Shown here: positions 6,555 through 34,395 of the stretch, in pieces
How positions within the stretch are numbered: the stretch's first letter is position 1
Layout: each line of letters starts with the position of its first letter
Assembly (NCBI GenBank): GCA_013178305.1
Contig: JABLXB010000005.1
Location: 1 to 64,000, forward strand
Length of the DNA: 64,000 nt
Direction: 5' to 3'
From: Bacillota bacterium
Lineage (GTDB): Bacteria > Bacillota > Sulfobacillia > JABLXB01
The notes under the pieces: generated by a model
Told to the model about the DNA's origin: nothing
The model's input: the letters and a program-made list of their open reading frames with translations, nothing else
The model's database searches: none
Position numbers and translations under genes: made by a program

Positions 6555-8456
6555 GTGTCGGCAGTTGAGTTCAAGTTCTTCTCCGGAAAGGGCGGCGTCG
6601 GCAAGACCAGCATGGCCTGCACCACAGCCGTACGCAGCGCAGACGAGGGTAGGCAGACCCTCATCGTCACGACGGATCCGGCTTCGAACCTGGCCGACGT
6701 TTTCGAGCAGCCGATCGGCCATAAGATTACTCCTATTGAAGGCGTGACCAATCTGTGGGCGATGGAGATCGACCCGGACCGGGCAACTCACGAATACAAG
6801 GAACGTGCCCTGGCCCCGATCCGCGAGATCTTTCCCCCAGAAGTAGTGCGGGTTATGGAAGAGCAGATGAGCAGCCCCTGCACCGCGGAGGTGGCGGCCT
6901 TCGACCGCTTTACTGATTTCATCGATACTGCTGGTGAGGACGGCCAGTCCTTCGGCCTGGTGATCTTCGATACGGCGCCCACGGGCCACACCCTCCGTTT
7001 ACTGGAGTTGCCGGCCGAATGGAGCCGCAGCATCCAGGAGGCTGCCGGAGGCAGCGGGCAGACGTGTATCGGCCCCGCAGCCGCCATCCAAGAGCACAAG
7101 GCCAAGTACGAACGGGCCCTCGCCGCCATGCGCGACCAGGAAAGCACTACGTTCACCTTCGTCCTGCACCCGGAGGCTACAGCGATCAAGGAGACGAAAC
7201 GCGCCATCGTCGAGCTTAGCAAGTTGGGGGTCCGAGCCTATCAACTGATCATCAATGGCATCATCCCGCCGGGCGAGGCCGCAAACGACTTCTTTGCCGA
7301 ACGGATTAGAATGCAGCAGGGTTACGTGGATCGGATTGCGCGGGAGTTGCCTTTCCCGGCTCGGCGCATGTTCCTCCTGGATGGCGAGATCAAGGGGGCA
7401 AGCCGGCTCCGCCATGTAGGCGAGATGCTGTTTGACGGACTGACGGATCGCGGACGGAGGAGGCCGGCATCGGTTAAGGCGGAGACGGCCGGAGAGGGGA
7501 GCCTCAAGGCTCAAGTGCGCGGAGACAGTCGGCGCTCGTCAACGCCCGGCATCTTGGCCCGGATTACCCCCGACTGCCACCGCCGCACCCTGTTTTTCGC
7601 GGGGAAAGGCGGCGTGGGGAAGACCGCGGTTTCATGCATCACGGCCGTATGGTTGGCCCGACAGGGGTACCGGACGTTACTCCTTACGACTGATCCTGCC
7701 GAGCACATAGGCGATGTGCTGGAAGTGCCCGTATCCGATGAACCCGCGAGGGTTGGGAGAGTGCCGCAGCTATGGGTCACCAAGATCGATGCAAAGGCCG
7801 CTGCTGAGGCCTATAAGGATCGCATTCTGGATGATGCCAGAAAACGGGGCCGTCCGCAGGAGGCGCTCGAAAGCATGGCAGAGGAGCTCAACAGCCCTTG
7901 CACGGAAGAGATGGCCGCCTTCGACAAGTTCATCGATTACGCTTCACAGGAGGGCTGGGACGTGGTCGTGTTCGACACGGCGCCAACCGGCCACACCCTG
8001 CGGCTCCTGGAACTGCCCATCGACTGGAGCGCGCAGCTGGATGTGAAGATCTTTGCCTCGGTGGATGCATCCGCCGCTGATGATGTCGCCAAGCGGCGGT
8101 TCGGTGAGGTAATCGAAATGATGAGGGACCCGGGGCGCAGCACATTCGCCTTCGTGATGTACCCTGAAAGCACGCCCATCGTCGAGTCTTACCGTGCGGC
8201 CCAGGAGCTGCGGACGGTGGGGATTGAACCGGGGCTGGTGGTGGCCAACCAGGTGCTTCCGCCGGAGGTTTGCACCACGCCCTACGCGCGGGCGCGCCGG
8301 TCCATGCAAGAGAAATACCTGGCCGAAATAGGGGAGCGATTCGGCGCGCCTGTCCTGACGGTGCCCCTCTTGCCCCACGAGGTGAGAGGGCTGGACGTAT
8401 TGGTTGAGCTCGGTGAGAGGCTTTACGGGGATAGGGTAGCGGCGAGACGATCCTGA
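6555..8456 (+). CDS. arsA: ArsA arsenite-stimulated ATPase (tandem)
   Basis: Two homologous ATPase halves. Half 1 has FFSGKGGVGKTS at residues 8-19, SSPCTAEVAAFDRF, DTAPTGHT near 139 and a TCIGPA Cys. Half 2 has FFAGKGGVGKTA near 350, NSPCTEEMAAFDKF and DTAPTGHT near 474. The paired Cys match the As(III)-binding Cys113, Cys172 and Cys422 of E. coli ArsA. 633 residues, the usual double length. ArsA normally energises the ArsB permease at the membrane; no arsB or acr3 gene occurs anywhere in this window, so the efflux partner is elsewhere or lost. GTG 6555 follows a purine-rich AAGGAAAAAGGGGG. Confidence 0.94.
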   Translation: MSAVEFKFFSGKGGVGKTSMACTTAVRSADEGRQTLIVTTDPASNLADVFEQPIGHKITPIEGVTNLWAMEIDPDRATHEYKERALAPIREIFPPEVVRVMEEQMSSPCTAEVAAFDRFTDFIDTAGEDGQSFGLVIFDTAPTGHTLRLLELPAEWSRSIQEAAGGSGQTCIGPAAAIQEHKAKYERALAAMRDQESTTFTFVLHPEATAIKETKRAIVELSKLGVRAYQLIINGIIPPGEAANDFFAERIRMQQGYVDRIARELPFPARRMFLLDGEIKGASRLRHVGEMLFDGLTDRGRRRPASVKAETAGEGSLKAQVRGDSRRSSTPGILARITPDCHRRTLFFAGKGGVGKTAVSCITAVWLARQGYRTLLLTTDPAEHIGDVLEVPVSDEPARVGRVPQLWVTKIDAKAAAEAYKDRILDDARKRGRPQEALESMAEELNSPCTEEMAAFDKFIDYASQEGWDVVVFDTAPTGHTLRLLELPIDWSAQLDVKIFASVDASAADDVAKRRFGEVIEMMRDPGRSTFAFVMYPESTPIVESYRAAQELRTVGIEPGLVVANQVLPPEVCTTPYARARRSMQEKYLAEIGERFGAPVLTVPLLPHEVRGLDVLVELGERLYGDRVAARRS

Positions 8457-14968: not shown

Positions 14969-15964
14969 TTGGAGACAGCGAGGAAATTAGCCAAGGAATT
15001 GGCTAAGAACTGTAAGACGTTCCAGGACGTACAGAACGCGCTGAAGGATCTCTTCAAGACGACGCTCGAGGAGGTTCTGGAGGCCGAGATGACGGATCAC
15101 CTGGGCTATACAAAGAACAGTCCTGAGGGAGACAACTCGGGGAACAGTCGGAACGGGTACAGCAGAAAGACTTTCAAGACGCGCCAGGGTGAAGTGGAGG
15201 TAGAGGTCCCGCGCGATCGCAACGGTGAGTTCGAACCCCGGGTCGTCAAGAAGTACGAGAGGAACGCAAGCGAGCTCGAGGACCAGATCGTCGCGATATA
15301 CGCAAAGGGATGTCCATCAGGGACATTGAAGGCCACCTGCGTGACATCTACGGGATCGAGGTCTCCTCGGTTTAAGTCGAGGGCGCTTCAGGCGACTCTC
15401 GACGAGTACCGGCTGACTATCGAGGAGATGGAGGGACGGGTTCAAAGGTTGGAGAGCGAGATCCATGAGCACGCGGAGAAGAGCGTGCACACGCCGGTGA
15501 TCAAGGCGCTAGAGGCTTTTCGAGGCATCAAGGAAACAGCGGCTGTAACGATAGTGGCGGAAGTAGGGAAATTCTCCCGGTTCGAGAAGGCGCCTCAAGT
15601 GATGGGCTACTCGGGGACGGTGCCGAGCGAGTACTCCAGTGGGGCAAGGACCCATCGCGGGAGGATCACGAAGGCGGGGAACAACCACCTGAGGCGGATC
15701 CTGATCAAATGCGCGTGGAGTTACCGGCACAAGGCGTGGATGTCCGAGGCGATCAGAAAGCGGCAGGAAGGCCAGCCCGCCAGAGTCCAGGCGATATCGT
15801 GGAAGGCCCAGGTGCGTTTATGTAAGAAGTACCAGCATCTTATCAGCAAGGGAAAGAGTCCGCAGGTCGCCGTCACCGCGGTGGCTCGGGAGCTGCTGGG
15901 GTTCATCTGGGCGGCCGCCTGTGAAGTTGAGAAGCAGGAGATTAGGCAAGATGGAGCGGCATAA
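14969..15964 (+). pseudogene. chimeric ORF: IS256 N-terminus joined to IS110 C-terminus
   Basis: Residues 1-115 are the N-terminus of an IS256 transposase (LGYTKNSPEGDNSGNSRNGY, GEVEVEVPRDRNGEFEPRVV, DDQIVAIYAKG-like). Near 15310 a single-base shift puts the natural continuation GMSIRDIEGHLRDIYGIEVS in another frame, ending at a stop near 15374. From about 15375 the open frame is IS110 C-terminus: RVQRLESEIHEHAEKSVHTP, FRGIKETAAVTIVAEVG, YSGTVPSEYSSGARTHRGRI, TKAGNNHLRRILIKCAWSYR. Neither enzyme is complete. Bases 15965-16106 hold no gene. Confidence 0.8.
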
Positions 15965-22381: not shown

Positions 22382-22445
22382 TGGTGTCGGGAGCGGGACT
22401 TGAACCCGCACGGTGTTCACCATATGCCCCTCAAACGTACGCGTC
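22382..22445 (-). repeat. partial tRNA-Leu copy: candidate distal attachment site
   Basis: These 64 bp match 31393-31456 of the intact tRNA-Leu(GAG) at 63 positions with no gap; the single difference is T at 22425 against C at 31436. The copy covers the anticodon loop, variable arm, T arm, acceptor 3' strand and CCA, but lacks the D arm and 5' strand, so it is not a tRNA gene. It is the expected duplicate of a tRNA 3' end left by a tyrosine-recombinase element, and marks the left limit of the 9-kb segment ending at 31393. Confidence 0.85.
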
Positions 22446-23222
22446 GGTCGACTCCCCAATATTTGAGGGATGAGGCACCCCCATTTCCTCCTGGATTAGG
22501 GCCACCACTTGCTTCAGCCTGTCTGCAATTTGTACAACTCGTTCGTGCGGATACCTCCAGTCAGGGCCCGCTGCACTCAATGAAGCCAGGGGCCTGCCCC
22601 AGTAACCCCTAATGGGAACGGCGACACCGGCCGTGCCTTTGGTAACCTCGCCCACAGTTAAAGCGAACCCTGTCTTCCTCACTTGTTCCAGGACAGTCTG
22701 GATTGTCTCCAGAGAGACGTTGTCGCGGTTCGCCACCCCTCTGGAGACGACGTCAATCACGAGCTGGGGTTCGTGAAACGCCAGCATCGCTAACCTGGAC
22801 GCTCCCCGGTACAGGGGCAGCCTCATACCGATGGGTTCTGTAATACGCAAGTTCAGGGGGCTTTCAACCTTTTCTACGTGAACGCCGTCCAAACCGTCGA
22901 GAAGGGTAAGATAAATGCTCTCTTCAAGCTCTTTTGCCAGGGACTCCATGTAGGGCCGGGCGATTGCTCTCACATCTAACGCCCGCCAGACCATCATCCC
23001 CAGCTCCAGAACTCTCAGGCCTATTCTGTAGCGCTTGTCGGCCGTTTGGGAAACGAATCCGTGATTCTTCAGCACCTGCAGCAACCTGTGAGTCGTGGCC
23101 ACCGGCATCCCTGTCTTGCCAGCCAGCTCAACGACTCCGTGAGCCCGCATCCCTTCCACCGGAGCCAGTTCAGTTAAGAGTCGTAACGCCTTGTCCAGGA
23201 CCAGAATCCCGCCTTGCGCCAT
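22431..23222 (-). CDS. IclR-family transcriptional regulator
   Basis: 263 residues. N-terminal winged helix (VLDKALRLLTELA, MPVATTHRLLQVLKNHGFVSQ) followed by the IclR effector domain (YRIGLRVLELGMMVWRALDV; VPIRGYWGRPLASLSAAGP). GGTGGAGAAGGG precedes ATG 23222. It is divergent from the MttB-type gene, and an IclR-style palindrome sits in the gap, so it probably controls that module. Oddity: its last codons and stop lie inside the partial tRNA-Leu copy; the TGA is the anticodon-loop TTGAG. The natural C-terminus was probably replaced by integration. Confidence 0.88.
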   Translation of the reverse strand: MAQGGILVLDKALRLLTELAPVEGMRAHGVVELAGKTGMPVATTHRLLQVLKNHGFVSQTADKRYRIGLRVLELGMMVWRALDVRAIARPYMESLAKELEESIYLTLLDGLDGVHVEKVESPLNLRITEPIGMRLPLYRGASRLAMLAFHEPQLVIDVVSRGVANRDNVSLETIQTVLEQVRKTGFALTVGEVTKGTAGVAVPIRGYWGRPLASLSAAGPDWRYPHERVVQIADRLKQVVALIQEEMGVPHPSNIGESTDAYV

Positions 23223-23424: not shown

Positions 23425-23450
23425 CGATGTGGCAAATGGGAGGGTGGGTA

Positions 23451-24899
23451 ATGGCACTGGCTGGTTACGGGGGACAGTATAAACCTCTGACGCCGACTGC
23501 GTTGGAGAGCATCTACGACGGTGGCCTGCGGTTGTTGGAGGAAGTCGGAATTCAAGTCAACAACCAGCGGGCCATCGCGATTTTTTCGGAGGCCGGGGCT
23601 AATGTCGACTGGCAAGGGCGCGTTGTGCGGATCCCCAGAAGACTCGTTGAAGGGGCTATTAACTCCGCTCCCTCTTCCGTGACTCTATGTGGGAGGCAAG
23701 CCGGTCACGACCTTACCCTGGAGAAGAACAGGGTTCATCTAGGAACTGGAGGCACTGCGGTCAACGTACTGGACCTCGAAGGGAAACGTCGGCCGTCCAG
23801 CCTTGATGATGTAAGGCGGCTGGGCAGGCTGGTGGACGCCATGGAGAACGTTCACTTCTACATGCTGCCGGTTTATCCCCACGACCTTGCCGCGGAGGAC
23901 GTGGACGTTAACAGGTTCTACGCAGGGCTGTCAAGCACCACTAAGCACATCACGGGCGGAGTGTACTCGGTAAAGGGGGTACGCGAGACAATTCGCGCCG
24001 CTGAGATACTGTCCGGCGGGGCGGAGACCCTTCGAAAGAAGCCCATCATCTCCTTCGTGGTTCTCGCTATCACTCCGTTGAAGATAGACGACCTGTACGG
24101 CGAGATGCTGCTGGAGATCGCCTCAAACAGGATTCCCGTCATAGTACCCACAGAACCGCAGTGTGGCTCGACTGCGCCCATGACACTCGCAGGCAATCTC
24201 GTACTGTACTGTGCGGAAACACTTGCGCAGGTCACGCTTGTCCAGCTCTGCAGTCCCGGGAGCCCGGTCATATGTGGGTACGTGGGGACAGTGACTGACC
24301 CGCGGACAATGGGGTATCTGGCGGGTGCGGCCGAAATGGGTCTCTTAAATGCGGCTGCCGCTCAACTTGCGCAATTCTGGGGTCTGCCTTTCTACGGCAC
24401 CGCCGGGATGAGCGACGCCAAAATCCCGGATGCTCAGTGTGGTTACGAGTCGGCCCTGACGACCCTCCTTGTTGCTATGGCGGGCGCCAATTACCTACAC
24501 GATTCGGCAGGGCTGTTAGACTTCGCGCTTACGATGAGCTACGAGAAGGTAGTCATCGACAACGAGGTCAACGGGATGGTAACCAGGGTTCTGAGCGGCA
24601 TCAACGCGGATGCAGAGCACCTCGCCCTGGACGTGATCCGGGAGGTCGGTCCGGGAGGTAACTTCCTCGCTCAGGTCCACACCGTAAAGCACTTGCGGAA
24701 GGAGTTGTACATGCCGCGGCTGAGCGACCGCCGGTCTTACGAGGAATGGATTGAATCGGGTAGCAAAGACACCCGGACCAGGGCAAACGAAAAGGCCAGG
24801 GCTATCCTGGGCGAACCGGCCAAACGGGTCGTGCCTGAGAACATTGAGGAAGAGCTCGCTAGGGCCCTGCCCAATCTGCGGCTGCCCCGACACGAATGA
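23451..24899 (+). CDS. MttB-family methyltransferase (non-pyrrolysine)
   Basis: 482 residues of the trimethylamine:corrinoid methyltransferase superfamily. The family pattern runs throughout: LEEVGIQVNNQRAIAIFSEAGANVD, VRIPRRLVEGAINSAPSSV, LGTGGTAVNVLDLEGKRRPS, TTKHITGGVYSVKG, and a C-terminal GPGGNFLAQVHTVKHLRKELYMPRLSDR. It reads through without an in-frame amber codon, so it is of the MtgB/MtpB-like non-Pyl type that demethylates quaternary amines such as betaines onto a corrinoid protein. GGGAGGGTGGG precedes ATG 23451. The corrinoid partner is next. The exact substrate is unknown. Confidence 0.88.
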   Translation: MALAGYGGQYKPLTPTALESIYDGGLRLLEEVGIQVNNQRAIAIFSEAGANVDWQGRVVRIPRRLVEGAINSAPSSVTLCGRQAGHDLTLEKNRVHLGTGGTAVNVLDLEGKRRPSSLDDVRRLGRLVDAMENVHFYMLPVYPHDLAAEDVDVNRFYAGLSSTTKHITGGVYSVKGVRETIRAAEILSGGAETLRKKPIISFVVLAITPLKIDDLYGEMLLEIASNRIPVIVPTEPQCGSTAPMTLAGNLVLYCAETLAQVTLVQLCSPGSPVICGYVGTVTDPRTMGYLAGAAEMGLLNAAAAQLAQFWGLPFYGTAGMSDAKIPDAQCGYESALTTLLVAMAGANYLHDSAGLLDFALTMSYEKVVIDNEVNGMVTRVLSGINADAEHLALDVIREVGPGGNFLAQVHTVKHLRKELYMPRLSDRRSYEEWIESGSKDTRTRANEKARAILGEPAKRVVPENIEEELARALPNLRLPRHE

Positions 24900-24951
24900 G
24901 ATGGGTCAACGAGACAGGTCAACCCAGTACAGAAGTGGAGGCGAACAGGTC

Positions 24952-25590
24952 GTGTTGAAGGTCATGCAAGCCCTTTCAGAGGCGGTCGTATCAGGAGACA
25001 TCGATAACATCATGCGGCTGACCGAAGAAGCATTGCGTTGTAGCGCATCGCCCAAAGAGACTATAGATGTCGGTCTTATGCCCGGCATGGACAGGGTTGG
25101 CTCCCTGTTCAGGACTGGAGAGATGTTCATTCCCGAGGTTCTCCTTTCAGCACGCACCATGCAGATGGCGATGAACGTATTGCGCCCGCACCTGATGGGC
25201 GGCGACGTACGGAATCAAGGGTCGGTCGTTATCGGCACTGTCCAGGGTGATCTGCACGACATCGGCAAGAACCTTGTACGGATGATGCTTGAAGCTGCGG
25301 GATTCAACGTGATCGACCTGGGGACGGACGTGCCGCCGGAGAAATTCATCGAGGCGATAAAGGCCCATCATCCTCAGATTCTTGGTTTGTCTGCACTGCT
25401 CACTACTACGATGCGGAACATGGCCGTCGTGATCGATACCTTGAGGGAGTCAGGCATTCGTCACCTCATCAAGGTAATGGTGGGAGGCGCCCCTGTCACC
25501 GGTGACTTCGCAAAGTCGATAGGCGCCGATGGATACGCTCCCAATGCCGTCGTGGCGGTTGATATGGCTAAGATACTGGTCAGGGGCTAG
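24952..25590 (+). CDS. corrinoid (B12-binding) methyl-carrier protein
   Basis: About 212 residues: an N-terminal helical cap (SEAVVSGDIDNIMRLTEEAL ... GEMFIPEVLLSARTM) and a Rossmann-like B12 domain with GTVQGDLHDIGKNLV, whose DxHxxG histidine is the lower cobalt ligand, plus GLSALLTTTMRNM and VMVGGAPVT. It shuttles the methyl group from the MttB-type enzyme. GTG 24952 follows GTGGAGGCG and matches the usual N-terminus; ATG 24901, just after the upstream stop, is a possible alternative. Confidence 0.9.
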   Translation: MLKVMQALSEAVVSGDIDNIMRLTEEALRCSASPKETIDVGLMPGMDRVGSLFRTGEMFIPEVLLSARTMQMAMNVLRPHLMGGDVRNQGSVVIGTVQGDLHDIGKNLVRMMLEAAGFNVIDLGTDVPPEKFIEAIKAHHPQILGLSALLTTTMRNMAVVIDTLRESGIRHLIKVMVGGAPVTGDFAKSIGADGYAPNAVVAVDMAKILVRG

Positions 25591-25839
25591 GTGTGGTGGA
25601 GCCACGGAAACCGGTTCTTGGGATTGACCTGGGAGGAACGTGGCGGGCTGCCCTGCAGACACCTGCTCAACCAGGCTTTCCTGGTTTCGTGCATGGCGGC
25701 GGGGCTGGATGCTGCCATCCTTGACCCCCTTGATGGTCGACTGATGGTTCTCCTGAGGGCCGCCGACGCCCTCCTCGGCAGGGACCACTACTGCACCGAC
25801 TACCTGTGGGCTTATCGGGATGGTAAACTGGACATTTGA
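25591..25839 (+). pseudogene. MtgA-like methyltransferase reduced to its C-terminus
   Basis: The 82-residue reading GLPCRHLLNQAFLVSCMAAGLDAAILDPLDGRLMVLLRAADALLGR and DHYCTDYLWAYRDGKL matches the extreme C-terminus of methyltetrahydrofolate:corrinoid methyltransferases (MtgA/MtrH type, about 270-300 residues). The first 200 or so residues, which hold the pterin-binding TIM barrel, are missing; the frame starts directly at the corrinoid gene's stop codon. Deletion of the methyl-acceptor transferase from an otherwise intact module is notable. Catalysis by this stump is not credible. Confidence 0.65.
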
Positions 25840-25874
25840 AGCCGTTTTCTCGCGCAAAGGGGGTGAACGCTGCA

Positions 25875-27197
25875 GTGAGTCCGGAAAGCGCGAGCGAGTT
25901 CATTACCGGCCTGGAATGGGATTGCATCCCTGAGGATGTCGTTGAGCACGCAAAGATGTGTTTGCTCGACTACCTTGCGTGCATGCGCGCAGGGTCTGCG
26001 ACTGAAGCCACTCAGGCGGCTAGACGTTTCGCGTCACTATGGTTCGGCGGACCGCAAACATCCGCTCTGGGCGGCCGTGAGAGAATGGGGTTGCTGGGGG
26101 CAGTCTTCTGTAATGCTATCGCCGCGTCTGAACTGGACATTGACGACGGTCACCGCGCGGCGCTCGGCCATCCCGGGGCAGCGATTATACCCGCCGCGTT
26201 GGGAGTGGGGGGGATGCTGCGGAGCAGCGGGAAGGAGCTGCTTGCCTCGATAATAGTCGGGTATGAGGTCGGAGTGCGGGCGGGGGAGATCATCTATTCT
26301 CAAAGCAAGGAGAGATTCTTCGGATCGGGCACGTGGGCGGCCATCGGCGTGGCTGCGGCATCCGCCCGGCTGCTCAGGCTCTCCAGGCCGCAATCATCAG
26401 CGGCTATAGGTATCGCCGAAGCGCACGCCCCCTTGACTCCGGTGATGAAGAGCATCGCCAGCGGCGCCATGGTGAAAGAAAGCCTCGGCTGGGCGGCTGT
26501 AACCGGCGTAAGCGCAGCGTTGCTGGCTCGGGAAGGATTCGAAGGAGTCGAGAGCGTCCTCGATGAAGCGAAAGAACCGCAGCGCTGGGGCGATGAGTAT
26601 TACATAAAGCGTGTCTACTTTAAGCAGTACCCCAGCTGTCGATGGTCGCACCCGGTGCTGGACGCGATCACCGCGTTACTCAGGCATCATCCCCTGGGGG
26701 CCGACGAGGTCCAGGAAGTCAGGGTTTATACCTTTGCAAAGGCGCTATCCCTCGCCAACTACCGTCCGAAGACGGTACACCACGCGCAGTACAGTATACC
26801 GTTTACAGTTGGGGCGCTCCTCGTCAGAGGAGATGTCACACCGCGCGACATTTCGCCCGAGAGTATCCACGACGCGCGTCTTCTTGATGTCGCTCGGCGA
26901 GTGAGACTCATCCTCGACCCTGACAGGGAAAAGGTCTTTCCCGACAAGTGTACCGCCAGAGTTGTGATCGTAAAGCGTGATGGAGCCTTTCTGGAATCAC
27001 CCGTCATCCAAGCGAGGGGGGACTGGGATAATCCCTTCACGAGGGAGGAGATGATAGGGAAATTCCTGAGGCTCACCACTGGAGCTCTCACCGAACACCA
27101 ACAACGGCTGACCCTGCGCCTGGTCGATGGCCTGGAACGCAGCGAGCTGCGCGAGGTCGTCGATGGAGAGGAGGAACGACAGTGCCTGGGGATTTGA
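25875..27197 (+). CDS. MmgE/PrpD-family protein
   Basis: About 440 residues. PrpD-type marks: an N-terminal helical bundle with CLLDYLACMRAG, then NAIAASELDIDDGHRAALGHPGAAIIPAALGVG, GYEVGVRAGEIIY, and a C-terminal alpha/beta domain with KQYPSCRWSHPVLDAITALL. The family includes 2-methylcitrate dehydratase, cis-aconitate decarboxylase and iminodisuccinate epimerase, so a dehydratase, epimerase or decarboxylase on a polycarboxylate is possible. GTG 25875 follows AAAGGGGGTGA; an upstream TTG (25836) overlapping the previous frame is less likely. The next gene starts inside its 3' end. Confidence 0.82.
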   Translation: MSPESASEFITGLEWDCIPEDVVEHAKMCLLDYLACMRAGSATEATQAARRFASLWFGGPQTSALGGRERMGLLGAVFCNAIAASELDIDDGHRAALGHPGAAIIPAALGVGGMLRSSGKELLASIIVGYEVGVRAGEIIYSQSKERFFGSGTWAAIGVAAASARLLRLSRPQSSAAIGIAEAHAPLTPVMKSIASGAMVKESLGWAAVTGVSAALLAREGFEGVESVLDEAKEPQRWGDEYYIKRVYFKQYPSCRWSHPVLDAITALLRHHPLGADEVQEVRVYTFAKALSLANYRPKTVHHAQYSIPFTVGALLVRGDVTPRDISPESIHDARLLDVARRVRLILDPDREKVFPDKCTARVVIVKRDGAFLESPVIQARGDWDNPFTREEMIGKFLRLTTGALTEHQQRLTLRLVDGLERSELREVVDGEEERQCLGI

Positions 27198-29128
27198 CGG
27201 ATCGGGAGACGGCTGAGATCACCGTCACAGATGAATCAGCGCTCGTCAGGACCAGGTATGTCTCGAAGTGGTGGCGTGCCATTATCTCCGTAGTAGCTGT
27301 GGCGTGGACGTGTTTTCAGGTCTACACTGGTGTTTTTGGTCTGTTCCCCGCAATGATCCAGAGGTCGGTCACACTGGGCTTCGGTCTGTTGCTGGCGTTC
27401 CTGGGTTACGGGTTTCGGAAAGCGGATCGCAGGGCCATCCGCATCTACGACTATTTCCTGGCGGCGCTGGCGGTAGCGTGCGTAGTGTACCTGTGGCTGA
27501 ACTTCAGGGTACTCGTGCATAGGGCGGGAGCTCCGCAGCCTGTGGATGTAGCGCTCGGCATTATCGTAGTCCTGCTTGTACTTGAGTCCTCCCGGCGCAC
27601 GTTGGGCTGGCCGCTAGTCATCGTGGCTTTGGTCTTTCTGTTCTACGGTGCGTTCGGCCCGATATTCCCGGGTCTTCTCGGTCACCGAGGTTATTCAGTA
27701 GCGCGGCTTGCGTCTCACTTGTATCTGACGCTTGAGGGCGTCCTGGGTATCCCAATGTCGGTGATGACTACGTATGTCTTCGCCTTTATAGTCTTCGGGG
27801 CGTTTCTTGACAGCACCGGCGGCTCGAAGGCCTTCATCGACCTTGCTTATGCACTTACCGGTAAGGCTACGGGGGGACCAGCCAAAACGGCGATCATCGG
27901 GAGCGGGCTGCTGGGAACCATATCGGGAAGCTCCCTTGCTAACGTGGTCGGAACCGGGACATTCACGATACCGCTGATGAAGAAAGTGGGGTACAAACCG
28001 TCATTCGCCGGTGGGGTTGAAGCAGCCTCGTCGTCGGGTGGTCAGATCATGCCCCCCGTAATGGGAGCGGCGGCATTCATCATGGCGGAAATGACCGGAA
28101 TACCGTACCTCCAAATATGCAAGTCCGCCGCGTTGCCCGCCGTCCTCTACTACGCCTCGATCTACGTGATGGTTCACCTCGAGGCCAAGCGACTTGGCTT
28201 AAGGCCAATACCGCCGGAAGACCTGCCGAGACTGTCGGATGCGCTGAAGAATAGCATCCAACTGATCTTCCCGATCGTAACCATCATAGGGTTGATGGTC
28301 AGGGGATACACGCCTCTCAAGGCCGCACTCTACGCCACCGCGGTTGTACTGGTAATATCTTGCCTCAGAAAAGAAACGCGCTTGACGTTCAGGAAGATGG
28401 TCGAAACCCTGGAAAAGGCGGCTTTGAACTGCATTGCGGTAACCAGCGCTTGTGCCGCCTGCGGGATTATCACAGGGGTCATCACCCTCACGGGCCTTGG
28501 GCTGAAGCTGGCCGACCTGCTGCTTCAGGCTTCCGGAGGGAATCTGGCGCTCACCCTGGTGCTAACCATGGTCGCCTCTATCCTTCTAGGAATGGGCCTG
28601 CCTACCACCGCGAAATACATCGTGTTGGCGACGATCGCCGTCCCCGCGCTCGTAACCCTCGACGTCCCGCTGATAGCGGCAAACATGTTCATCTTCTATT
28701 ACGGGATTATCGCGGAGGTGACTCCACCGGTCGCATTGACTTCATACGGCGCGGCGGCGATAGCCAACGCCCCCGGCGTCGAAACAGCGCTTCAGGGGCT
28801 ACGGTTGTCCTTCGCAGGTCTATTGCTGCCGTTCATGTTCGTGTACCATCCTGCATTGCTCATGCTCAACGTGACGATCGCGGACATGGCCCTGGCGGTT
28901 ATCAGCTCTCTCCTGGGCATCGTGGGCCTGGGTGTGAGTCTTGGCGGTTACTGGCTAACGGATTGCCTGTTCTACGAACGAGTGGCTGCGTTTGTTGCGG
29001 CCCTTCTTCTCATCAGCTTCGGAATAGTAACGGACCTCGTGGGGCTGGTACTGCTTCTCCTGGTGTACCTGAGCCAGAAGGGCCGAGTAAACAGGCACCA
29101 TCGTGCAGGTTGCGGAGCGACTCTATAG
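27182..29128 (+). CDS. TRAP transporter fused 4TM/12TM permease (TAXI type)
   Basis: 648 residues, about 16 or more membrane helices: an N-terminal DctQ-like four-helix part, then a DctM-like part with FGAFLDSTGGSKAFIDLAYALTG, GTISGSSLANVVGTGTFTIPLM, SSSGGQIMPPVMGAAAFIMAE, GMGLPTTAKYIVLATIAVPAL and EVTPPVALTSYGAAAIA. This fusion is typical of TAXI-TRAP systems, whose binding protein is encoded next. AGGAGGAACGACA precedes GTG 27182, inside the 3' end of the MmgE/PrpD gene. Confidence 0.92.
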   Translation: MPGDLTDRETAEITVTDESALVRTRYVSKWWRAIISVVAVAWTCFQVYTGVFGLFPAMIQRSVTLGFGLLLAFLGYGFRKADRRAIRIYDYFLAALAVACVVYLWLNFRVLVHRAGAPQPVDVALGIIVVLLVLESSRRTLGWPLVIVALVFLFYGAFGPIFPGLLGHRGYSVARLASHLYLTLEGVLGIPMSVMTTYVFAFIVFGAFLDSTGGSKAFIDLAYALTGKATGGPAKTAIIGSGLLGTISGSSLANVVGTGTFTIPLMKKVGYKPSFAGGVEAASSSGGQIMPPVMGAAAFIMAEMTGIPYLQICKSAALPAVLYYASIYVMVHLEAKRLGLRPIPPEDLPRLSDALKNSIQLIFPIVTIIGLMVRGYTPLKAALYATAVVLVISCLRKETRLTFRKMVETLEKAALNCIAVTSACAACGIITGVITLTGLGLKLADLLLQASGGNLALTLVLTMVASILLGMGLPTTAKYIVLATIAVPALVTLDVPLIAANMFIFYYGIIAEVTPPVALTSYGAAAIANAPGVETALQGLRLSFAGLLLPFMFVYHPALLMLNVTIADMALAVISSLLGIVGLGVSLGGYWLTDCLFYERVAAFVAALLLISFGIVTDLVGLVLLLLVYLSQKGRVNRHHRAGCGATL

Positions 29129-29259
29129 CGCCGGTGAAACGACAGGAGGGCTAGACTCCGGGTAGGCGAGGAGGTGGGAATGCCGACGAAGCGTGAGGCG
29201 GGGATCTCGCAGTGAGGGCCGTTCTCCAGTATGGCGTACTCTATAAGGGGGTTAGTGCA

Positions 29260-30252
29260 ATGAGAAAGCCGGTCGCGGCACTATTGGCCCTGAGCATGGT
29301 GTGTTTCGTGCTTTCCGGGGTAGGTGGCTGCACCAAGCCAGCAGAGAAGCCGAAAGAGCAGTCCGGTCCCCTTCGTTTGTCGATCGCAACGGGCGGAGTG
29401 GCGGGAGTCTATTACCCCCTCGGAGGTGCGATAGCCTCCGTAATAAACACCAAGATGAAGAATGCAAATTGCTCGGTGGAGACTACCGGAGGGTCGGTTG
29501 CCAATATTCACCTCATTAAGGGCGGCTCCGCGAACCTCGCATTCTCGGCAGCAAACGTATTCTATGATGCGGTGAAGGGGATCGGAGCGTTCAAGGACCA
29601 GAAAGTCGAGTCCGCCAGAGCCATCCTCAGCCTTTACCCGGAGGCCGTACAGATCGTGACCCTGGCGGATTCGGGCATCAAGACAGTGAATGATCTGAAG
29701 GGCAAGAAAGTGGCCGTGGGCGACATGGGAAGCGGCACCGAGTTGATGGCCCGTGAGATCCTCAAACTATACGGCATGACCTATGACGACATTACGGAAG
29801 ACTACCTGGGCTTTTCTGAGGCTGCCAACGGTTTGAAGGACCGCACCATCGCCGCAGGGTTCATCTGGGCAGGGGTGCCTACAGCGGGCATAATGGACCT
29901 CACGTCGCAGAACAAGATATCGCTGGTACAAATAGATGAAGCCAGGATTAACGACCTCACCCAGCGGCTACCGTATTGCACCGTGATGAAGATAGTGGGC
30001 GGGACATACAAGGGCCTCGATACGGAGGTAACCACAATAGCCATCCCCGCGATTCTAATCGGACGCGCAGACCTCTCGGATGAGTTCGTTTACAGCCTGC
30101 TCAAGGCCATCTTTGATAACAAGAAGATGCTTGAACAAGCTCACGTAAGGGGCAAAGATATCAGCTTGCAGACGGCGCTAAACGGATTGAAAGGAATCCC
30201 GCTACACCCGGGTGCCGAGAGATTCTTCAAGGAAGCAGGATTGCTCAAATAG
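29260..30252 (+). CDS. TAXI-family TRAP substrate-binding lipoprotein
   Basis: 330 residues with a signal peptide and lipobox GVGGC near residues 19-23. The mature part has the family signature LSIATGGVAGVYYPLGGAIA, then NIHLIKGGSANLAFSAANVFYDA, VKTVNDLKGKKVAVGDMGSGTE-like (IKTVNDLKGKKVAVGDMGSG) and the C-terminal LHPGAERFFKEAG. It delivers substrate to the fused permease. ATG 29260 begins the signal peptide; a longer upstream reading has no ribosome site. Substrate is unknown but likely the methylated compound or acid used by the island. Confidence 0.92.
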   Translation: MRKPVAALLALSMVCFVLSGVGGCTKPAEKPKEQSGPLRLSIATGGVAGVYYPLGGAIASVINTKMKNANCSVETTGGSVANIHLIKGGSANLAFSAANVFYDAVKGIGAFKDQKVESARAILSLYPEAVQIVTLADSGIKTVNDLKGKKVAVGDMGSGTELMAREILKLYGMTYDDITEDYLGFSEAANGLKDRTIAAGFIWAGVPTAGIMDLTSQNKISLVQIDEARINDLTQRLPYCTVMKIVGGTYKGLDTEVTTIAIPAILIGRADLSDEFVYSLLKAIFDNKKMLEQAHVRGKDISLQTALNGLKGIPLHPGAERFFKEAGLLK

Positions 30253-31392: not shown

Positions 31393-31477
31393 TGGTGTCG
31401 GGAGCGGGACTTGAACCCGCACGGTGTTCACCATACGCCCCTCAAACGTACGCGTCTGCCAATTCCGCCATCCCGAC
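31393..31477 (-). tRNA. tRNA-Leu(GAG)
   Basis: Minus-strand cloverleaf: acceptor GTCGGGA/TCCCGAC, D arm GGCGGAATTGGCAGAC, anticodon stem TACGT/GCGTA around the loop TTGAGGG (anticodon GAG), a long variable arm with GGTG/CACC as in class II tRNAs, T arm GCGGG-TTCAAGT-CCCGC, discriminator A and an encoded CCA. All pairs close. Its 3' half is duplicated at 22382-22445, so it is probably the integration site of the segment to its left. Confidence 0.95.
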
Positions 31478-32949: not shown

Positions 32950-33097
32950 CAGACCGGCCCACCATCTTGGCAAGTGGGGTTTCCCCACACAACATTTGCG
33001 TGGCGGTCGTACAGGCTGCGCCCTTACAATGTCTTTGTGCGTGGGGTTAACCGGTTAACCTCCAGAAACTCCTACGAATTGGCTGGAGGTGTTCAAA

Positions 33098-34395
33098 TTG
33101 CCCCTGAGCGAAGACCAGAAGACGGACGTGGCCCTGTATCGTTTTTCCCTTTTGGCGCCGATCCTGAATAACCAGGTTGACGACGTCAAGGCGTACCTCG
33201 ATGAAGTCGCCTCGACCATGTACGACGTCCCTCACTACGGCCGGCGACAGTATAGCGCTCGCACTGTCAGGCGCTGGCTCTGGGAGTACAGGCGGGACGG
33301 GCTGGACGCCCTGAAGCCACAGAGGAGAAAGGACTCCGGTTCCTTCCGCTCCATCCCGCAGCCGTTGCAGGATAAGATACTTGCCGCCAGGCGGGAGAGT
33401 CCCCTGGCCACTGTCACCCTGTTTTACGAGGAACTCCTCCGCTCCGGAGCGCTCCTCCGAGCCGACGCCTCTTACTACTCGGTATACAGGCTCCTTCGAA
33501 AGCACGGCTTGGTGAGGGTTCCCGACGCGCCCGCGTCCACCAGGGAGCGCAAGAAGTTCGCCTTCGAGCAGGTCAATCGATTGTGGCAGGGCGACATGAT
33601 GGTTGGTCCATACATACTCGTGGATGGGCGGAGGAAATCGAGCAGCCTGTTCGCATTCATCGACGACTGCTCTCGGCTCGTGCCCTTTGGCAGGTTCGAC
33701 ATCGACCAGGATTTCGACGCGCTCAAGCGGGTGTACATCGAGGCTGTCGTCCGGCGGGGCATCCCCAGACCGTTTATCTGGACAACGCCAAGGTTTACCG
33801 CTCCAAACTGTTCCATGAGGCGCTGGCCAGGATGGGCACGATCATTGCGCACACACAGCCGTACGACGCAGCCAGCAAGGGAAAGATTGAGCGCTTCTTC
33901 AAGACGGTAAGGGAGAGATTCCTTCCCACAATCGGCGAACCAAGTTCAATCGAGGACCTCAACCAGGCGTTCTGGCGATGGCTCGAAGAGGACTACCACC
34001 GCCGGGTCCACTCCTCATTGGGCATGTCACCCCTGGATAAATACCTGTCCCAGGCAAACAGCATCAAACTGGTCTCCGACCCCGACGCTGTAAGGAAGTT
34101 GTTTTTGAAAAGGGAGGCTCGCCGGGTGAACAAGGACTCCACCATATCCGTCATGGGGGCCTTCTTCGAGGTTCCTGCTGAACTCGTGGGCCAGCGCATC
34201 GATATCCGCTTCGACCCCAACGACCTGGAGCAGGTGTTCCTGTACCGTGACGACGAGTTCCTGGGGACGGGGACTCCGGTGAGAATCGCCGACAACGCGC
34301 TGGTGAAGAGAAACCGAACCTCTCCGCCGGCGGACATGCCGCTGCTCTCATTCTGTGAGGCGCTGAAGAGGAAGGAGGGAGCAGGCGGTGTATAG
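33098..34395 (+). pseudogene. DDE (Mu/IS21-like) transposase, one-base frameshift
   Basis: TTG 33098 follows GGAGG. N-terminal HTH (YSARTVRRWLWEYRRDGLDALKP), then the RNase H-like integrase core: LWQGDMMVGPYI (first Asp), SLFAFIDDCSRLVPFG, and after a frameshift at 33765-33771 (a C run probably one base short) VYLDNAKVYRSKLFHEAL (second Asp) and SKGKIERFFKTVRERFLP (Glu), then a Mu-type C-terminal barrel. All catalytic residues survive, but not in one frame. It overlaps the ATPase gene by 8 nt. Confidence 0.82.

Follow-up and report, generated by a model that had tools for sequence, protein, structure and literature searches.

A probable deletion scar joins the start of a hyuA-like gene to the end of mtgA in an mttB-type operon of a Bacillota bacterium

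The 82-codon open reading frame that lies directly behind the mtbC-like gene in the window (the whole stretch of 64,000 nucleotides analysed here) is very probably (roughly 0.88, by our own estimate) a deletion scar, a pseudogene of an ordinary and known type, left by an out-of-frame deletion of ~2.6 kb in which most of hyuA and most of mtgA were lost. The ancestral operon would most likely have carried mttB, mtbC, hyuA and mtgA in that order, ahead of mmgE and the transporter genes; the deletion would have set in at codon 16 of the hyuA-like gene and reached about codon 200 of mtgA, its ends being joined out of frame such that neither HyuA nor MtgA could be made whole. The features concerned are collected in Table 1.

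Table 1. Features of the operon, and of the scar within it, in positions of the window; percentages are identities.
Feature	Position	Strand	Basis
IclR-type regulator, divergent from the operon	22431..23222	-	IclR_C E 8.3e-26, HTH_IclR E 5e-12; 60% to the IclR of G046
mttB-superfamily methyltransferase, full length	23436..24899	+	PF06253 E 4.1e-110, profile positions 30-489 of 500; 76% to G046
mtbC-like corrinoid protein, full length	24901..25590	+	two B12-binding domains, NCBIfam corrinoid families; 67% to G046
82-aa open reading frame under study	25591..25839	+	fortuitous reading across the junction
hyuA/hydA-like 5'-end remnant, 16 codons up to the ASKHA motif VLGIDLGGT	25593..25640	+	motif scan, gene-order comparison
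probable deletion junction	25641..25644	+	4 bp assignable to neither side; hyuA homology ends at 25640, mtgA starts at 25645
mtgA 3'-end remnant, 64 codons and stop, not in the frame of the hyuA start	25645..25839	+	NF005719; 73-76% to full-length MtgAs
MmgE/PrpD family protein, downstream neighbour	25836..27197	+	domain match
TRAP permease (27182-29128) fused to TAXI binding protein (29212-30252)	27182..30252	+	domain matches
MTHFR-like protein, 292 aa	30363..31241	+	PF02219 E 1.7e-7

Working outwards from the scar, we see an operon in which the methyltransferase MTI and the corrinoid protein are full length (the mttB frame being open throughout, without an in-frame TAG) and in which MTII is broken; a complete set of MTI, corrinoid protein and MTII is thus not found together here. 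A tRNA-Leu gene (31393-31477) lies just downstream of the operon, as does a Mu/rve-type transposase that is spread over two overlapping frames (33089-33910 and 33583-34395) and looks frameshifted. The ORF at 14969-15964, which by eye resembles an IS256-type transposase, lies on the other side, and the operon region may therefore sit between two transposase genes. The genes upstream, between 15987 and 22145, include a sigma-54 activator, an NhaC-type antiporter, an amidohydrolase and a class IV aminotransferase, and perhaps constitute a module of their own for amino acids or dipeptides.

The GTG start of the 82-codon frame abuts the TAG of mtbC (25588-25590), just as the preliminary description had it, and the frame closes in a TGA. 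That description read the whole of the frame as the last 82 residues of MtgA. It is indeed the C-terminal remnant of a deleted mtgA that we find, residues 19-80 corresponding to positions 202-263 of 268 in NCBIfam NF005719 (methyltetrahydrofolate:corrinoid/iron-sulfur protein methyltransferase, MtgA-type; E 3.5e-19), with the best matches to the stump showing 73-76% identity over ~62 residues, a level above chance that marks it as kin to MtgA; but the MtgA share is only 64 of the 82 codons (25645-25836, homology also starting at 25645 in tblastn), the first 18 being the 5' end of the hyuA-like gene read in the wrong frame. Pfam gave no match within the ORF, Pterin_bind included. The catalytic barrel is gone, as first thought: nothing of MtgA before about residue 200 is present, and the stump opens at the tripeptide GLP just past the motif GLSNVS, the Asn of which is therefore missing. 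We take this residue to be the catalytic Asn199 of AcsE; amongst PDB chains the motif reads GLSNVS in 2e7f versus GLSAVS in 2ogy, an N-to-A change. Set against the MtgA/AcsE methyltransferases of 4o0q, 2yci and 2e7f, the stump is equivalent to their C-terminal quarter, without most of the barrel and without the GLSNVS Asn. What is left shows no decay—at the 10 positions where 90% or more of 52 full-length MtgA-like sequences agree, the stump never departs from the consensus—which fits a recent deletion, but would equally fit a product that is kept.

Read in the frame that begins at 25593, the other side of the junction translates as VVEPRKPVLGIDLGGT, which is how a hydantoinase/oxoprolinase-like (HyuA/‘HydA’) protein begins; similarity is lost after the remnant, and the frame, 43 codons long, then closes. 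The assignment concerns 16 codons only, essentially a single motif, G-I-D-x-G-G-T, which is present at the start of the gene behind mtbC, as expected of a HyuA/HydA-like member of the ASKHA group, and which presumably serves in phosphate binding. Pfam was blank for positions 25593-25700 of the window, with neither Hydant_A_N nor Hydantoinase_A matched, and a 21-residue hyuA start searched against its own genome matched only itself. The ASKHA motif occurs three times in 746,930 six-frame residues (the window plus 23 loci), at 25614 in the window and once each in the genomes G046 and G020, all three directly behind an mtbC; the pattern was composed after the window had been seen, and the count is accordingly a description rather than an independent test. 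That the 5' piece came from a ROK-type sugar kinase was also considered and was rejected, the site behind mtbC in G046 and G020 indicating HyuA instead.

The closest orthologous operon is that on contig C1 of G046 (locus L088; identities in Table 1). Like the window, it has a divergent IclR gene, mttB, mtbC and, directly after mtbC, a HyuA-like gene; unlike in the window, the last of these is intact, encoding a 678-aa protein that starts VRPMGDLVLGIDTGGT and matches both Hydant_A_N (E 5.3e-27) and Hydantoinase_A (E 8e-34). The two operons differ also in the placing of MtgA: in G046 no mtgA stands behind hyuA, the gene being found past the IclR gene at a distance of ~8 kb. Neither MmgE nor TRAP was matched within the stretch fetched for this operon. 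In both operons seen with a similar MttB (G046 and G020), hyuA sits directly behind mtbC, and the view that the stump lies within an ‘otherwise intact’ methyl-transfer module does not hold, given that hyuA has been lost as well. A further mtgA of G046 (L053, G046:C5:146000-155226, at 6759-7546) carries a frameshift near codon 217 that divides it into frames of 377 and 111 codons, and is either a pseudogene or a sequencing error.

For the position of mtgA itself we turn to a wider comparison. The HyuA of G046, used as a query against 398 genomes of the phylum, gave 34 listed matches in 27 genomes, and 20 of the 34 form our gene-order sample; a non-random one, 14 having been chosen for a nearby MtgA and 6 not. 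At 12 of these 20 loci mtgA comes after hyuA in the same orientation, and the first matched gene upstream of hyuA is mtbC (5 loci) or mttB (7), whilst the order is mtgA-hyuA at three and no MtgA was matched within the fetched stretch at five; HydA thus stands beside MtgA at 15 of 20 loci in this non-random pick, and the six loci not chosen for MtgA comprise one with hyuA-mtgA and five without MtgA in the fetched stretch. The distance from the GGT of the ASKHA motif to the GLP of MtgA is 2569-2644 bp at 11 of the 12 hyuA-mtgA loci and 3206 bp at the remaining one, compared with 4 bp in the window, and it is this spacing (2.57-2.64 kb in 11 relatives, 3.21 kb in one) that points to a deletion of ~2.6 kb. 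A comparable arrangement comes from the glycine betaine methyltransferase cluster of ‘Candidatus Formimonas warabiya’ strain DCMF, the cluster table of which lists MtgC-MtgB-‘unknown’ (668 aa)-MtgA (265 aa), with the text on the nine-gene cluster naming one N-methylhydantoinase A/oxoprolinase (PMC9768040); going by that table and that passage, the 668-aa protein would, by elimination, be this enzyme. The cluster so described shares with the window the adjacent mttB-superfamily MTI, corrinoid protein, hydantoinase-like gene and MtgA; it differs in that hydA and mtgA form a fused scar in the window, and in the TRAP, MmgE/PrpD and MTHFR-like genes.

Saying this, the relatives in which mtgA follows hyuA are not those closest to the stump. 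In a tree of 52 rows (stop-free matches covering most of the protein, with near-duplicates dropped and AcsE- and MetH-type relatives taken in), the stump, which fills only 24% of the columns and at most 64 of them, belongs to an 8-row clade (97/84) together with MtgAs of G046, G016, G003, G058, G013 and G057, whereas the MtgAs of its own family, f1, form a separate clade (100/100). The MtgAs behind hyuA at our gene-order loci sit in clades other than this clade of 8, and no HyuA match was found beside the stump's closest MtgAs in the neighbourhoods fetched for them; the place of mtgA behind hyuA is thus drawn from more distant relatives. We infer that in this lineage hyuA and mtgA stood side by side and were lost in a single event; alternatively, two events may have made the scar, or the two genes may have met separately in this lineage. 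The grouping of the stump with MtgAs of other families suggests that the operon was imported and then trimmed of redundant parts. GC3 is 0.72 for the stump, 0.66-0.69 for the genes of its operon and 0.85 for the mtgA that resides elsewhere in the genome. As to two other members of the family, the best match of G002 to the window MttB reaches at most 36%, and G001 gave none at E up to 1e-60. Separately, a scan of genome contigs returned one Spirochaetales match, at 47%.

The preliminary description proposed that the methyl group might now be passed on by another enzyme, either a distant MtgA or the MTHFR-like protein, and advised a search for a full-length gene. Such a gene exists: a complete mtgA (G000:C1, ~847.3-848.1 kb; 266 aa; NF005719 E 1.4e-100) is located behind another mttB-mtbC pair of the same genome, and a distant MtgA may indeed stand in. 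The stump was rejected as a copy of this resident gene, to which it is 58% identical over its length as against 73-76% to MtgAs of other families, with the two in separate clades. A divergent MtgA/AcsE-like protein at C3:4570 scores 209 of 259 bits with NF005719, below the model cut-off; we rejected it as the AcsE of a Wood-Ljungdahl cluster on account of that score and of CdhC/ACS not being found in the draft genome, the assembly of which is rated 97.7% complete. A role for the MTHFR-like protein finds no support and was set aside, since MTHFRs act on a folate-bound one-carbon unit and not on methyl-corrinoid; the genome has two other MTHFR-family matches, and nothing was seen that ties them to methyl-corrinoid. 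An MTHFR-family match at G000:C8:153901-154203 (L165) lies, as does the window's MTHFR-like protein, in an open frame of 292 codons.

The genome encodes four MttBs, that of the window included, and also holds two further MtbC-type proteins, a single RACo-type corrinoid activator (C1:25315) and HyuA homologues on C8, C2 and C1 (31-37% identical to the HyuA of G046). Were MttB and MtbC of the window still in use, the methyl group would pass to folate by way of the resident MtgA acting in trans, with the RACo-type activator reactivating the corrinoid protein; the resident MtgA would be the most economical route. That the trimmed operon does still work without HydA and MtgA, its corrinoid protein being served either by the methyltransferase of the resident system or by a MetH-like protein, we hold to be possible, albeit doubtful.

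The second of these routes taken by itself, in which the module still functions and MtbC gives up its methyl group via the MetH-like protein to homocysteine or folate such that MtgA is not needed, appears unlikely. The protein in question (G000:C1:627968; L004:1486-3135, minus strand) has a homocysteine S-methyltransferase domain (PF02574, E 1.1e-69) and a pterin-binding folate domain (E 2.8e-11) and matches positions 40-585 of the 1182 of MetH; a search of 550 codons out of 587 showed no B12 domain. It could be a split methionine synthase that depends on a corrinoid protein supplied in trans. The route is also in keeping with CdhC/ACS not having been found in the genome, and with a model proposed for Ruegeria pomeroyi that, as outlined in PMC12478193, ties glycine betaine demethylation to methionine synthesis via MtgC. 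Either of the two other MtbC-type proteins could, however, serve the MetH-like protein, and the assumption is unnecessary given a resident MtgA.

A deletion is also to be weighed against an error of assembly, in which hyuA and mtgA would really be intact and ~2.6 kb would have been skipped. We are dealing with a draft genome in 22 contigs, and the join is abrupt; a collapse, however, needs near-identical repeats, and the candidates on offer are the other MtgA, at 58% over the stump, and HyuA homologues as far from the G046 protein as given above. Within the window, no 16-base word of 25591-25700 is repeated, and two 14-base words recur 22 and 35 kb off. We regard such an artefact as very improbable.

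The poorest prospect of all is that the stump is still translated and has been kept as a small protein, a C-terminal domain standing alone, as the preliminary description had allowed: an 82-codon open frame with AGGGG 4 bp before its GTG, coding-like identities by codon position versus three relatives (0.75-0.81, 0.78-0.84 and 0.41-0.48) and unchanged conserved sites speak for it, but no more than the final quarter of MtgA is left, the first 18 codons belong to a hyuA start that is here read out of its frame, the same AGGGG lies 6 and 9 bp before two GTGs in the hyuA frame, and no other stand-alone copy appears among the matches listed in a search of 398 phylum genomes with the stump (E up to 1e-8; matches in 205 of 398), all others there lying in open frames of at least 199 aa. 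A search of relatives at E up to 1e-5, which took in three family f1 genomes, each of another genus, gave one other short frame, the 111-aa part of the frameshift-split mtgA on G046:C5 described above.

The deletion scar is in itself routine. What it offers is a natural case of an MttB-type operon that has shed HydA and MtgA while keeping MttB, MtbC and transport, and one that could be used for testing both the sharing of MtgA between systems and the purpose of HydA. If the trimmed operon does still work, then MttB systems with a likeness of only 35% between their MttBs could exchange such parts, and HydA would be dispensable.
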